Assembly (NCBI GenBank): GCA_003223245.1
Contig: QHYI01000112.1
Coordinates: 1 to 64,000 of the forward strand
Length of the DNA: 64,000 nt
DNA from: Acidobacteriota bacterium
GTDB taxonomy: Bacteria > Acidobacteriota > Terriglobia > Acidiferrales > UBA7541
Direction: 5' to 3'
Numbering within the stretch: position 1 is the stretch's first letter; each line of letters opens with the position of its first letter. The notes under the pieces are model-generated. The model made no database searches, was not told the origin of the DNA, and was given only the letters and a program-made list of their open reading frames with translations. Made by a program: the position numbers and the translations under genes. Positions 1,396 to 62,443 of the stretch are shown in pieces.

Positions 1396-4300
1396 ATGCG
1401 GTGGTCTTGTATGAAGCGCAATCTCCTGTTCAGTTTTGTTGCTTTTAGCCTCACGGCAGCCTGCTCGTGGGCACAGACAGGCACAACGTCTTTGCGCGGG
1501 ACGGTTACAGACAAAACCGGTGCGGCCGTCGTCGGCGCTAAAGTGACAGTTAGTAATCAAGGGTTGGGGCTGACCCGCGAATCCACCACGGGGACTACCG
1601 GTGAATACGAGTTTCTCGCTTTGCCGCCTGGCACGTATGTTTTAACGGTAGAAATGAGAAGCTTCCGCAAGTACGAGCAAACCAACCTGCAACTGCTGGT
1701 GAACACGCCGGGGACGGCCAATGTGAGCCTGGAGGTGGGGACCGCAGTGCAAACCGTTGAAGTCTCTGCCCAAACTGTGACGCTAAACACGACCGATGCC
1801 TCGTTGGGTATCGCCTTTGATGAGAACCAGGTGAAGGCGCTTCCACTAGAAGCCGGCAATGTGCCCGAACTGTTATCTCTGCAGGCCGGAGTGACGTACA
1901 CGGGTAACCGGCCAGATTTTAATAAAGACACCGATACTCGCAACGGGGCGGTCAATGGGGCACACAGCGACCAGAGCAACATCACACTGGATGGTGTGGA
2001 CGTCAATACTGATACGAAAGGGTACGCCTTCCAGTCTGTTTTGCCTATTACTCAGGATTCCGTACAAGAGTTTCGCGTGACAACCAGCAACTACAATGCG
2101 GACGAGGGACGCTCGTCCGGCGCCCAGGTTGCTCTAGTGACCAAGAGCGGTACCAACGATTTCCACGGTTCGCTGTTCGAGTTGCATCGCAACACCTTTA
2201 CGAGCGCCAACGATTACTTCATAAAGCTCGCCGAATTACAGGGCGGCGCACCCAATACACCCCCGAAGTTGATACGTAACATCTTTGGAGGGTCCGTCGG
2301 CGGACCTTTCAAGAAAGACCGGCTTTTCTTCTTCGCGAACTATCAAGGCGGACGCCAACGGGAGGCGCAAAGCGTCGTGCGAGTCGTGCCCAGTGCGGCA
2401 TTGCAGGACGGCGTAATCACTTATCAATGTGCGGTTCCCAGCCAGTGTTCGGACGGAACCATGCAGGTTGCTGGCCTGACAAGCTCCCATACCATCCAGG
2501 CCGGCTACTATGCCTTAAGCCCCGCGCAGATCCAGGCCATGGATCCTCAAGGTATCGGAGCTAGCCAAAATGTAATGATTCCGTACTTCCAATCGTTTGC
2601 GAAATTCGTACCCAATGATAATTCGGTCGGAGACGGGGTGAATTTTGTGGGTTACCGTTTCAGCGGACCTGTAGCGATCAACACGAATTGGTACATTGCA
2701 CGAGCCGATTACAAGATTACTAGCAACGGCAACCACACAATATTTTGGCGCGGCGCGCTGCGCAATGACACAAACTCCGGGGTTCCCTACCTTCCCGATG
2801 GGGCCCCTGAACTCAGCACCGTGGACTACAGCAAGGGATATTCTGTTGGGTACTCGGCCGTACTCCGACCGACGCTCGTGAACAACCTGAGGTACGGCTA
2901 TACGCGGCAAAGCGTGGGGCAGATCGGCAATCAGGGCACGCAAATGATCTTTTTCCGCGGCCTTAACGATAATGAGGGCGCAAATAACTCTGAGTTAGCC
3001 GTCACAAACAATAACAACTTCCGGGTCCCGGTTCACAACATCGTGGACGACGTCTCGTGGATGAAGGGGCGGCACACGCTCCAGTTCGGCGCAAATTTCA
3101 ATTTCTTGCGCAGTCCGCAGGCCAACAACCTCCATTCCTTTACTTCTGCTTCTGACAACCCGTCGTGGCTCGACAAGGCCGCTATGGCGAATACCGGCGC
3201 TCCTGGGCATTTCGATCCTGCTTGCTCCACGGGGAGCGGAGCGTGTGGCGGCGCCGCTTATCCCGCGGTGGATTCAGGATTTGGCAACAATTATGACTAC
3301 CCGATGGGCGCGTTGATCGGCATGATCACGCAAGTGAACGCCCATTACAATTTCACCCGCAGCGGCACCGCCTTGCCCGACGGGACTCCGGTCTCGCGCC
3401 GCTTCGCCGCGGACAGTTGGGAGATGTACGCTCAGGATTCCTGGAAGGTGAAGCCCAATCTGACCGTAACTTTTGGCCTTCGGTACACGCTCGCTTCGCC
3501 TCCTTGGGAAACAAACGGACTTCAGGTCGCTCCGAATGTGAGCTTGAGCGATTGGTTCGCTGGGCGTGCTGCAGGCATGCTTCAAGGAACGCCGGCGAAT
3601 GCTGCCCCTCGTCTTAGCTTCAATTTAGCTGGCCCTGCGAATGGGAAGCCGGGCTTTTACGATTGGGACAAAAAGGACTTTGGGCCCCGAGTCGCTATCG
3701 CGTGGTCTCCCAGCGGAAAAGAAGGGTTGTGGAAGAGCCTGTTTGGGGGCCCTGGTCAAACCACGATTCGTGCTGGCGCGGGAATTGTTTACGACCGCCT
3801 TGGGCCGGCACTGCTCGCCACCTTCGACGCAAGCGGCTCGTTTGGGATGGCTACGGAACTGACCAACACCGGAGGGATAGAGACACCCGGGATTGCACCT
3901 CGCGCAACCGGCCTAACGGGCATTAACAACATTCCTGTCTTCGATCTTGCCAACCCACCAAACAGGCTGTTTGCAGTCGCGCCTGGCGGAAGTTTCCCGC
4001 AAACTTTCCCGAACGGCTTGAACGGCGACACCGGTTCCTATGCTGTTTATTGGGGAATGGACCGAAATCTCAAGAGCCCTTATTCGTATACTTTAGACTT
4101 ATCGGTGGGGCGCGATTTGGGCCACAACCTAGCCCTGGAAGTCGCCTATGTGGGAAGGCTGTCTCACAGACTTTTGTCGCAAGAAGACGTGGCCTCGCCC
4201 CTGGATTTGGTCGACCCGAAAATCAAAACCGACTACTACACGGCAGTTACTGCACTGGCAAAGTTGTATAGGCAAGGAATTCCAACAAGCTCCATCACAC

Positions 4301-55596: not shown

Positions 55597-56841
55597 ATGT
55601 CGTGGCGGAGTGTGTCAGTGGGGGACAAGGCTCATTACCGCGGTCAGATCGAGAAACTCCTCAATAGCCACGCCTTGCATGGTTCCGAGTCACTGTGCAA
55701 GCTGCTGCGCTATCTGGCGGATCATGCCTTGGAGCACCCCGGCGCTTCCCCGAAGGAGTATCAAATTGCGACGGAGGTCTTTGGCCGTCCGAGTGATTTT
55801 GATCCCCATCTAGACTCAATGGTCCGCGTTCAGGCGGGACGCCTTCGGGGAAAACTCGCGGAATACTACGCATCGGAAGGCGCGGACGACCAGGTCCTCG
55901 TCGATTTCCCACGAGGCACCTACGCTCTCAGTTTTCATGAGCGTCCCGCAGGGACCGGGCGCAACCACGGAGCCGCGCCGCACGAATCATCCTCTGATGC
56001 AAGCCAAAGCCCCCGGAAGTGGTTCGCGGGGGTCATTCTGCTATCGGTTGTTCTCTCCGCGGTCGTTGCCGTTGCCACAGACCGGTTCCTCAACAGGCGT
56101 ACCGCGGAAGCCCGGCTCAGTAGCGACACTTCCGATATGCCGTTGGCTTTTCATGTCTTCTGGAAAGGCTTTCTCACCGGCCCGCAGGAGCCTTGGGTTA
56201 TCTTCAGCAACGCCGCTTTCGTAGGTCGGCCCTACGTGGGCATGCGTTATTACAATCGCGCCAAGGATTCCGGCGCCGCGATCTTGGATCATTATACGGG
56301 AGTCGGTGAAGTGCTGGCAGTTCACGCTCTCGATGGTGTTTTTGGAAAACTTCATCAGCAAATTCGTGTCAAGCGCGGCAGCCTGTTTTCCTTGGATGAC
56401 GCGAAGAACGACTCGCCTTCGGAGAATTTGACCCTCTTGGAGCTGCCAAATACTCAGAAATTCATCTTCAAGCAGATCACTTCTGGGCCCCGCACTGGCA
56501 CTATGGAAATCATCAATTCTCATCCTGAATCCGGCGAACCGAAAGAGTTCCTTCCATCTCTGCCTGACGAGACACTGACGGAAGACTATTCGATCATCGC
56601 TCTGAAACGAGGATTGAACCCCGCACATTCGGAATTGATTCTGGCAGGCGCTACCACGATCGGCACGCAAGCTGCTGTCGAGTATGTTTGCCAGCAAGCC
56701 TCGCTCGAGGAATTGCTGCTCCGGCTTTCCGTTTCGAACTCCGGGGAATTGAAACCGTTCGAAGCGGTCATTCGAGTGAGAGTCGCTCGCGGCGTGCCCG
56801 TGGGGACGGAACTTGTCGCCCTGAGGAAAGAGCCAACTTAA
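55597..56841 (+). CDS. Membrane-anchored winged-helix-type regulator
   Basis: A 414-residue protein. The N-terminal region (about 15-110) carries LCKLLRYLADHALEHPGASPKEYQIATEVFGRPSDFDPHLDSMVRVQAGRLRGKLAEYY, matching in pattern a winged-helix-like domain found in acidobacterial and rhizobial regulators; VLVDFPRGTYALSF is the wing end. A single transmembrane helix (GVILLSVVLSAVVAVATDRFL, about 145-165) places the C-terminal 250 residues in the periplasm, where they could sense a ligand. It starts at ATG 55597 without a strong ribosome-binding site. Its position opposite the Oar-like receptor suggests it controls that gene. Confidence 0.75.
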   Translation: MSWRSVSVGDKAHYRGQIEKLLNSHALHGSESLCKLLRYLADHALEHPGASPKEYQIATEVFGRPSDFDPHLDSMVRVQAGRLRGKLAEYYASEGADDQVLVDFPRGTYALSFHERPAGTGRNHGAAPHESSSDASQSPRKWFAGVILLSVVLSAVVAVATDRFLNRRTAEARLSSDTSDMPLAFHVFWKGFLTGPQEPWVIFSNAAFVGRPYVGMRYYNRAKDSGAAILDHYTGVGEVLAVHALDGVFGKLHQQIRVKRGSLFSLDDAKNDSPSENLTLLELPNTQKFIFKQITSGPRTGTMEIINSHPESGEPKEFLPSLPDETLTEDYSIIALKRGLNPAHSELILAGATTIGTQAAVEYVCQQASLEELLLRLSVSNSGELKPFEAVIRVRVARGVPVGTELVALRKEPT

Positions 56842-60643: not shown

Positions 60644-62443
60644 TTATCCAGGGCAGTGCTTGTTCAGAAACCGAAACACATCGCCGGCCCAAACAGAGCT
60701 TCCGAAATAGCCAAACGTGTGGCCATCTTGGACGGACTCGCCATAGGGCGGATAGATCTTGACCTCGAATTCCTTCCCAGCGTCCTTCATGGCGTTCGAA
60801 AGCACGCGGCTAGGAGAAAGGTCGTAATCATTCTCGGCCTGAAAGAAAAAGATTGGAGCATGGGAATTCCGGACACTGCGCGTCATCAGCGATTGAAGTT
60901 CGGGCGCCTCCGACCAGCTCTGAGCCCCGCCGGCAGAATCGATGGCCGCGCAATACAAACCGCGCTCCGCGCCTAACACAGCCTCGATGCCGCCAAACGA
61001 ATTGCCTGCCACAGCAATGCGATCTCCCTCAACGAACTTCTGTGTTCGCAGCCATGCCAAGGCGGCAAGTTGGTCGTTCAGGTGATCGGTCTCGAGCAAG
61101 CGGACCATGGTTGCTGCGCCGCTGGCGAGGCCTCCCGCTTTAGTCGCTGAGGCAATCTCATCTCCAATGTACTTGCCCGCCGAAGAACTTAGACCTTGGC
61201 CTCTCCTGTACGGTCCGAAGAAAACCCAACCGTTCTTGGCAAACACCGGGCCCAGCGCGTCAAAAGCTCCTTTGCTGAGCATGCCCGGAGCGCCGCCATG
61301 GTTGTAAACCACCGCGGGGAACGGCCCAGCTCCGCTGGGCTTGTACAGCGTCCCGTGAAGGCTAAGATCTCCACTGGGAAACGTGACCACCTCGCCTTCT
61401 GACGCTGGAGGTGAAGACGACGGCACTGACGAGAGAGCGGCGTCAGGGAGGCGCTCGGCTCCTGCCACGCCGACGTATTTGTCGGCGCCGCCATAATAAA
61501 ACAGCCAGCGACCGTCTTGCCGGACCATTCCTTCGACAAACACCACGTTGGGCACCTGGCCGACCTTTTCCCATTCTTTTTCCGGTGCGAAGATGGGATC
61601 GGCGGAACGGGAGAGAACTTTGCGCGGATCGTTCGAATCGAAGATCGCCACGCCCGTGCGATAAACAAGCTGGTCGTCGGCGCCGTTATAGATCAGCACG
61701 ATGCCTTCCTTGGTGAGAATGGGCGGGGGGCCCGGCTCGACCACTCGCGAATCGAACTTGCCGGGACGCTTTGGGAGAACGGGAGTTTGTGTCGCTTCCG
61801 TCCAATGAATTAGGTCCGTGGACCAAGAGAGGCCCGCCTGGTCGGTCTTATCCGCTGCGGTGCCCAGCCAATACATCCAATACTTGCCGTCAATTTTTTC
61901 CGGAACGATTGCGCCGGACTTGGTCCAGCCTTTGTTCCAGTTTCCTTTGTAAGCCGGAAGAACCACGCCTTTGCGGTCCCAGTGAATAAGATCGTGCGAG
62001 GTAGCGAGGCAAAGTTGCGCGTCTTTTCTGTTATAGCCCGTGTAGGTGAGGTAAAACGTGTCCCCGAATTTCTGCAAGCGGGGATCTTCCACGCCGCCCT
62101 CTTTTTCGTAGGCCGTTTCGGGAGCAAAAACCGGCCCCGGCCTGCGTGTGAAGTGAATTCCATCCGTACTCTCCGCGTAGCCGAGACGAGAAGTTCCGGC
62201 CGCATCTTGCGCCCGATAAAGCATCACGAATTTGCCGTTGTGAAAGGCGACAGCGGGATTAAACGTGCCTGCGGATTCCCATTTGGTTCCCTGCGGAGAA
62301 ATGATGGGCTCGTTCGACGCTCGGGTCCAGGCGCCAAAGGGGAGAGTGGAGATTTTCTCTGTTCGCTTTGCTAGGCCAGCCGCAGCAGCGAGCCACACGA
62401 TCGCGACAAGCAGCATCGCCGGAGAACTTCTTCGCTTCATCAT
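60644..62443 (-). CDS. GH130 glycosidase/phosphorylase fused to an alpha/beta hydrolase
   Basis: A 599-residue exported two-domain protein. A signal peptide (LLVAIVWLAAAAGLA) precedes a five-bladed GH130 domain (about 30-335): FNPAVAFHNGKFVMLYRAQD, GGVEDPRLQKFGDTFYLTYT, GAIVPEKIDGKYWMYWLG and VVFVEGMVRQDGRWLFYYGGADKYVG. GH130 enzymes act on beta-mannosides, as phosphorylases or hydrolases. The C-terminal domain (about 350-599) is an alpha/beta hydrolase of dienelactone-hydrolase type with Ser482 in AGNSFGG, Asp539 or 541 in AENDYDLS and His575 in QDGHTFGY. The pairing suggests removal of an ester group from the same mannan-type substrate; that is inference. Export of a phosphorylase would be odd, so hydrolysis is more likely. 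Confidence 0.85.
   Translation of the reverse strand: MMKRRSSPAMLLVAIVWLAAAAGLAKRTEKISTLPFGAWTRASNEPIISPQGTKWESAGTFNPAVAFHNGKFVMLYRAQDAAGTSRLGYAESTDGIHFTRRPGPVFAPETAYEKEGGVEDPRLQKFGDTFYLTYTGYNRKDAQLCLATSHDLIHWDRKGVVLPAYKGNWNKGWTKSGAIVPEKIDGKYWMYWLGTAADKTDQAGLSWSTDLIHWTEATQTPVLPKRPGKFDSRVVEPGPPPILTKEGIVLIYNGADDQLVYRTGVAIFDSNDPRKVLSRSADPIFAPEKEWEKVGQVPNVVFVEGMVRQDGRWLFYYGGADKYVGVAGAERLPDAALSSVPSSSPPASEGEVVTFPSGDLSLHGTLYKPSGAGPFPAVVYNHGGAPGMLSKGAFDALGPVFAKNGWVFFGPYRRGQGLSSSAGKYIGDEIASATKAGGLASGAATMVRLLETDHLNDQLAALAWLRTQKFVEGDRIAVAGNSFGGIEAVLGAERGLYCAAIDSAGGAQSWSEAPELQSLMTRSVRNSHAPIFFFQAENDYDLSPSRVLSNAMKDAGKEFEVKIYPPYGESVQDGHTFGYFGSSVWAGDVFRFLNKHCPG

Follow-up and report, generated by a model that had tools for sequence, protein, structure and literature searches.

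A predicted exported protein of Acidobacteriota joins a GH130 domain to an alpha/beta hydrolase through a young gene fusion

Introduction

An open reading frame of a soil Acidobacterium seems to place a glycosidase and an esterase-like domain on one secreted chain. Is such a protein real, how did it arise, and do its two halves act on the same substrate? The frame lies in a stretch of 64,000 nucleotides of contig QHYI01000112.1, which was analysed as a whole and is called the window hereafter. A preliminary description had proposed that the two domains are coupled on acylated mannan, and we consider this a reasonable hypothesis.

A complete fused gene

The gene occupies positions 60644..62443 (-) and encodes 599 amino acids plus a stop. 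The single frame described earlier is indeed continuous and free of stops over its 599 codons. Its N-terminus, MMKRRSSPAMLLVAIVWLAAAAGLA, resembles a signal peptide and shows a hydropathy peak, its first residues being rich in K/R and the next ones hydrophobic; a Sec signal peptide is predicted at about residues 1-25 (62369..62443, -), in agreement with the export claimed before. Residues 40-330 (61454..62326, -) form the GH130 five-bladed beta-propeller, recognised by Pfam (Glyco_hydro_130, PF04041, residues 56-328, 232 bits against a cut-off of 26, E=9.6e-69, profile positions 31-308 of 320), by matches to GH130 structures in the PDB at E ~1e-59 and by AlphaFold2, whose full-length run gave this part a pLDDT mostly above 90. 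The motif GGVEDPR, named in the preliminary description, stands at residues 116-122.

A Ser/Pro-rich linker (61400..61453, -) marks the fusion junction, at the point where the GH130 of relatives ends (junctions of L035, L041, L075 and L038). It is followed by an alpha/beta hydrolase domain of the DLH/S9-like type (residues 349-599; 60647..61399, -), supported by AlphaFold2, by fold matches and by two Pfam families, DLH (residues 394-565, 32 bits, cut-off 21) and Peptidase_S9 (residues 450-504, 30 bits, cut-off 22.6). The fused product is confirmed as a real two-domain protein with predicted export.

Recurrence of the fusion in the genus

The preliminary description would have been undone by an assembly fusion of two genes or by an architecture found in no other genome, and neither applies. 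An intact second copy of 598 amino acids, about 82% identical to the window protein, is encoded at L035:745-2541 in the gp2 Acidobacterium isolate AA89 (G012), and a contig search recovered a third copy with the same domain order, frameshifted, in isolate AA91 (L036, G030). The three come from different species of one genus, with proteins 81-88% identical. With the architecture also present in L035 and, in frameshifted form, in L036, the fusion is neither a mis-assembly nor a chance event; an assembly artefact is ruled out by the same junction in independently assembled genomes at this level of identity. Two opposite frameshifts were noted at L036:6897-7510 (+), one where the linker has six consecutive G, the other within the hydrolase.

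The fusion is young and lineage-restricted. It was found in only three of the 27 GH130-bearing genomes of the genus, one of these copies being the frameshifted one. Every other GH130 relative fetched from the group is a standalone gene of ~320-390 aa, and the remaining hydrolase relatives fetched are likewise standalone, at ~275 aa and with a signal-like N-terminus of their own, so that outside the fused copies the two are separate and unlinked genes. The genus probably includes Candidatus Acidiferrum typicum, since the GH130 gene of one of its members (G033, L014) appears to be the same as that of record L042. Among openly accessible papers, none describing a fusion of GH130 with an esterase came up, which is weak evidence of absence.

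Active site and context of the hydrolase half

The triad announced as Ser482, Asp and His575 is complete and its numbering correct. Ser482 (GNSFGG; 60998..61000, -) would be the nucleophile, Asp539 (ENDYD; 60827..60829, -) the acid and His575 (DGHTF; 60719..60721, -) the base; they stand in the order expected of a DLH/S9-like alpha/beta hydrolase, and all three are invariant in an alignment of 18 homologous hydrolases with identity down to 50%. With these 18 homologues, AlphaFold2 returned a confident alpha/beta hydrolase (pLDDT 93.9, pTM 0.92). The same half came out poorly in the full-length run (pLDDT mostly 27-77) because the alignment used there contained no hydrolase homologues.

Among PDB folds, it is most similar to S9 acylaminoacyl peptidases, feruloyl esterases, lipases and DLH proteins, with identities of 15-24%, and in the VIA-align listing of these matches no one esterase family stands clear of the rest. 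Feruloyl and cinnamoyl esterases, DLH-family esterases and S9 catalytic domains (PDB 7Z2V, 3PF8, 3F67, 4HXG) share the fold (Z 21-24) and the triad with the window hydrolase, but at ~15-24% identity their specificity is not transferable. The acetyl xylan esterase family AXE1 (PF05448) scored 13.2 bits, under its cut-off of 21. For this half we infer activity as a serine esterase or acylhydrolase.

The genomic context of the standalone homologues points to no particular substrate. Their neighbours are thymidine-kinase-like, GHMP-kinase-like, FtsX-type permease, integrase-like and dihydrofolate-reductase-like genes, and at five such loci (L085, L088, L092, L093, L098), where neighbour sequences were read without a family scan, no glycan theme was visible. 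Hydrolase and GH130 genes do not co-occur significantly either (8/9 versus 19/27, Fisher P=0.40, 36 genomes).

A deviating GH130 domain

The best-studied comparison is the beta-1,2-mannosidase BT3780, whose residue roles are known (PMC4599007). In the alignment, the window GH130 matches it at N62, R77, E119, D120, K175, E236, Y261 and D321. E119-D120 (62084..62089, -) correspond to Glu141 and Asp142, a +1 subsite residue and the presumed catalytic acid; D120, the Asp of the E/Y-D-P-R motif, is invariant in 28 alignment rows. K175 (61919..61921, -) corresponds to Lys199, proposed to set beta-1,2 specificity in BT3780 (PMC4599007), and is invariant in the GH130 alignment. E236 (61736..61738, -) is the counterpart of Glu268, one of the two base glutamates. 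The place of the other, Glu227, is taken by T195 (61859..61861, -), within a longer loop, WLGTAADKTDQ. Most close relatives also have Thr at this position, deeper relatives have Asp or Glu, and distant ones carry WGE.

The hydrolase signature is therefore incomplete, and since a review gives GH130 hydrolases two canonical carboxylates (PMC8950772), one of which is replaced here by T195, the window GH130 belongs to a deviating subgroup. Among the features of BT3780-type beta-1,2-mannosidases, the Glu268 base, Lys199 and the lack of basic phosphate-binding residues are shared by the window protein; the second base, Glu227, is absent, and the NCBIfam mannosidase model NF058598 gave 238 bits, below its curated cut-off of 550. 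Catalysis with E236 alone is nevertheless plausible, as the E227Q mutant of BT3780 retains 3% activity and E268Q 0.4% (PMC4599007). Perhaps D198 or D201, in the same loop, helps E236 in place of the lost Glu.

BT3780 and BACOVA_03624 (PDB 5A7V, 3QC2; PMC4599007) are secreted GH130 enzymes like the window protein and agree with it in the acid, the +1 residue, the linkage lysine and one base Glu. They differ from it in having both base glutamates and no C-terminal hydrolase, and in belonging to Bacteroides mannan utilisation loci, whereas the window gene sits in no such locus. The 1,2-beta-oligomannan and beta-1,2-mannobiose phosphorylases (PDB 9FJ8, 7FIP; Teth514_1788/1789, PMC4264767) match the window GH130 with a similar score and share the linkage lysine, but they are cytoplasmic and have basic phosphate-binding residues. 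In the alignment these residues are absent from the window GH130, which reads WLGT against LHR of phosphorylase 9FJ8. The NCBIfam model of beta-1,2-mannobiose phosphorylases, NF052550, gave 248 bits, below its cut-off of 450.

Hydrolysis is likelier than phosphorolysis, because the phosphate-binding residues are missing and the acid, the linkage lysine and E236 are kept. From its residues, the domain is probably a secreted beta-mannosidase that works by inversion and represents a new subgroup, and our best guess for its substrate would be a beta-1,2-mannoside. Acetylated plant manno-oligosaccharides are not the substrate of first choice, since the residues (K175) favour a beta-1,2 linkage over plant beta-1,4-mannan.

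Origin of the fusion

In three relatives (L041, L075, L038) the corresponding site is empty: the GH130 gene ends with its stop and is followed, after tens to ~150 bases, by a convergent FG-GAP/UnbV-ASPIC gene. In the window, an 850-base hydrolase module stands exactly at this empty site and the GH130 has no stop there. In further relatives the same position is occupied by different inserts, roughly 1-6 kb long, so this site is variable. The junction position coincides with the end of the signal peptide in the standalone hydrolase (L084: ...AFSVSPKGEVVSFPSG; window: ...SSSPPASEGEVVTFPSG).

The three fused copies group as a single clade of the hydrolase tree (97/90), and the sister of this clade is a standalone gene of a genome of the same genus, G029 (98/94). 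One six-member group of the GH130 tree contains fused and unfused copies intermixed; therefore, either the fusion was lost or the tree is unresolved, and some lineages may have lost the hydrolase half. A decayed remnant of a fused-type hydrolase, frameshifted and with its start missing, was also seen at L140 ~2703-3312 (-) (G018:C79), away from any GH130. It shares 87% identity with the window protein across 116 residues, and the GH130 site of that genome is empty.

These observations suggest a scenario in which a standalone gene for a secreted alpha/beta-hydrolase would have landed directly behind a conserved GH130 gene of gp2 Acidobacteria. The GH130 gene would have lost its stop codon upon this arrival, and the hydrolase would have shed its own signal peptide in fusing. 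Stop loss between two old neighbour genes is unsupported, as no fetched locus (flanks up to 6 kb) has both genes adjacent and unfused. Import of the hydrolase from outside the genus is equally unsupported, the sister of the fused copies being a standalone copy of the same genus.

On the other side of the GH130 gene, relatives also vary. In L037, L042, L043 and L079 it lies directly after an upstream frame or overlaps it by 4 bases; in L042 this frame encodes an FG-GAP/UnbV-ASPIC protein, and in the window an FtsX/MacB permease takes its place. This arrangement suggests that GH130 and the upstream frame form an operon in several relatives, absent from the window. Elsewhere in the window, positions 55597-56841 (+) encode a 414-aa protein without Pfam match, which has a conserved N-terminal region (HALHGSESLCKLLRYLADHAL...) and syntenic counterparts in L041 and L043.

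Selection on the two domains

Between the window and L035, the dN/dS (Nei-Gojobori) is 0.05 for the GH130 and 0.10 for the hydrolase, approximate values given the high dS, and rough because synonymous sites are near saturation. Purifying selection acts on both domains in the two intact copies, and both have been retained at the protein level since these two copies diverged from their common ancestor. The pieces of L036 show similarly low ratios despite the frameshifts, which are therefore recent or assembly errors.

Other fusions of GH130 with serine hydrolases

By following GH130 frames of unusual length, we found further fusions in Acidobacteriota. A GH130 with a C-terminal SGNH/GDSL hydrolase in a single frame of ~770 aa is present in G295, G744, G645, G686 and L105, and the two halves also share one frame in G467 (C15), G718 and G728. 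Among these Acidobacteriaceae genomes, the exported fusions at L105:5974-8310 (+) and L133:4032-6347 (-) may serve as examples. G467 additionally encodes, at L132:2008-5322 (+), a GH130 followed by a full S9 prolyl-oligopeptidase, with propeller and catalytic domain, in 1104 aa.

Like the window protein, these fusions (L133, L105, L132) have an exported GH130 and, in the same frame, a serine-hydrolase domain at the C-terminus. They differ in that the SGNH hydrolase is unrelated and the S9 one, with its propeller, is much longer, and in that their GH130 domains are of the WGE, two-glutamate type. Judged by sequence, exported GH130 enzymes are joined to at least three types of serine hydrolase in Acidobacteriota, a parallel that was unexpected. 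Since the unrelated SGNH/GDSL and S9 domains were also joined to exported GH130, an added hydrolase seems to have been repeatedly tolerated or useful. A looser parallel is the xylanase-glucuronoyl esterase CkXyn10C-GE15A (PMC8280721), which likewise unites glycosidase and esterase domains in one secreted protein but belongs to other families, acts on another substrate and has carbohydrate-binding modules.

What the fused protein may do

In the explanation that we favour, to which we give about an even chance, the young fusion yields an exported bifunctional hydrolase made of a GH130 beta-mannosidase half and a serine esterase half. Outside the cytoplasm, the GH130 half would most likely cleave off terminal mannosyl residues in beta linkage, beta-1,2 being the best guess, through hydrolysis with inversion. 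As a working hypothesis, the esterase half would take acyl groups off the same or a neighbouring glycan. The main rival to such coupling is an accidental and functionally neutral fusion, in which the domains have unrelated substrates, are co-exported on one chain and are each selected for their own job. The missing co-occurrence of the two genes, the unrelated neighbours of the standalone hydrolase, the few genomes concerned, with unfused copies within the same GH130 clade, and the frameshifted hydrolase half of L036 all speak for it. It is, however, at odds with the joining of other serine-hydrolase domains to GH130 in the phylum and with the purifying selection on both domains after fusing, and we consider it a serious contender that falls short of even chances.

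Two further readings concern the GH130 half itself. Owing to Thr195, it might be catalytically weak, or serve mainly as a propeller that binds glycan and holds the esterase in position; nearly all close relatives have T195 in place of Glu227, and the 3% activity left to BT3780 E227Q (PMC4599007) would fit. Yet the GH130 retains E236, D120 and every sugar-binding residue and has the lower dN/dS of the two domains, and the loop carboxylates D198 and D201 could stand in for the lost Glu, which makes this reading unlikely. A GH130 phosphorylase accompanied by a hydrolase, both periplasmic, draws on the NCBIfam phosphorylase model, which at 248 bits scores no lower than the model for the mannosidase at 238 bits, with both far under cut-off. 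We regard it as highly improbable. The preliminary description had already doubted a phosphorolytic role on account of secretion, and the signal peptide does count, given that characterised phosphorylases are cytoplasmic (PMC4599007); the missing basic phosphate residues and the presence of the hydrolase-type glutamate E236 speak against it more directly.

Going beyond the bifunctional hydrolase favoured here, exported GH130s of Acidobacteriota might acquire C-terminal serine hydrolases of different superfamilies (DLH-like, SGNH, S9) again and again because in nature they act on an undescribed acyl-decorated beta-mannoside, necessarily deacylated before or after mannose release. This is a speculative idea and, on present evidence, a rather doubtful one.

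Conclusions

If the two domains cooperate, their fusion gives a direct hint at what is cleaved by a GH130 group without one canonical catalytic glutamate, a group found widely among soil Acidobacteria. The unrelated hydrolases found on the same enzyme family provide several natural constructs for testing. If the domains do not cooperate, the locus would offer a clear case in which two enzymes were fused neutrally and relatives kept the empty site.
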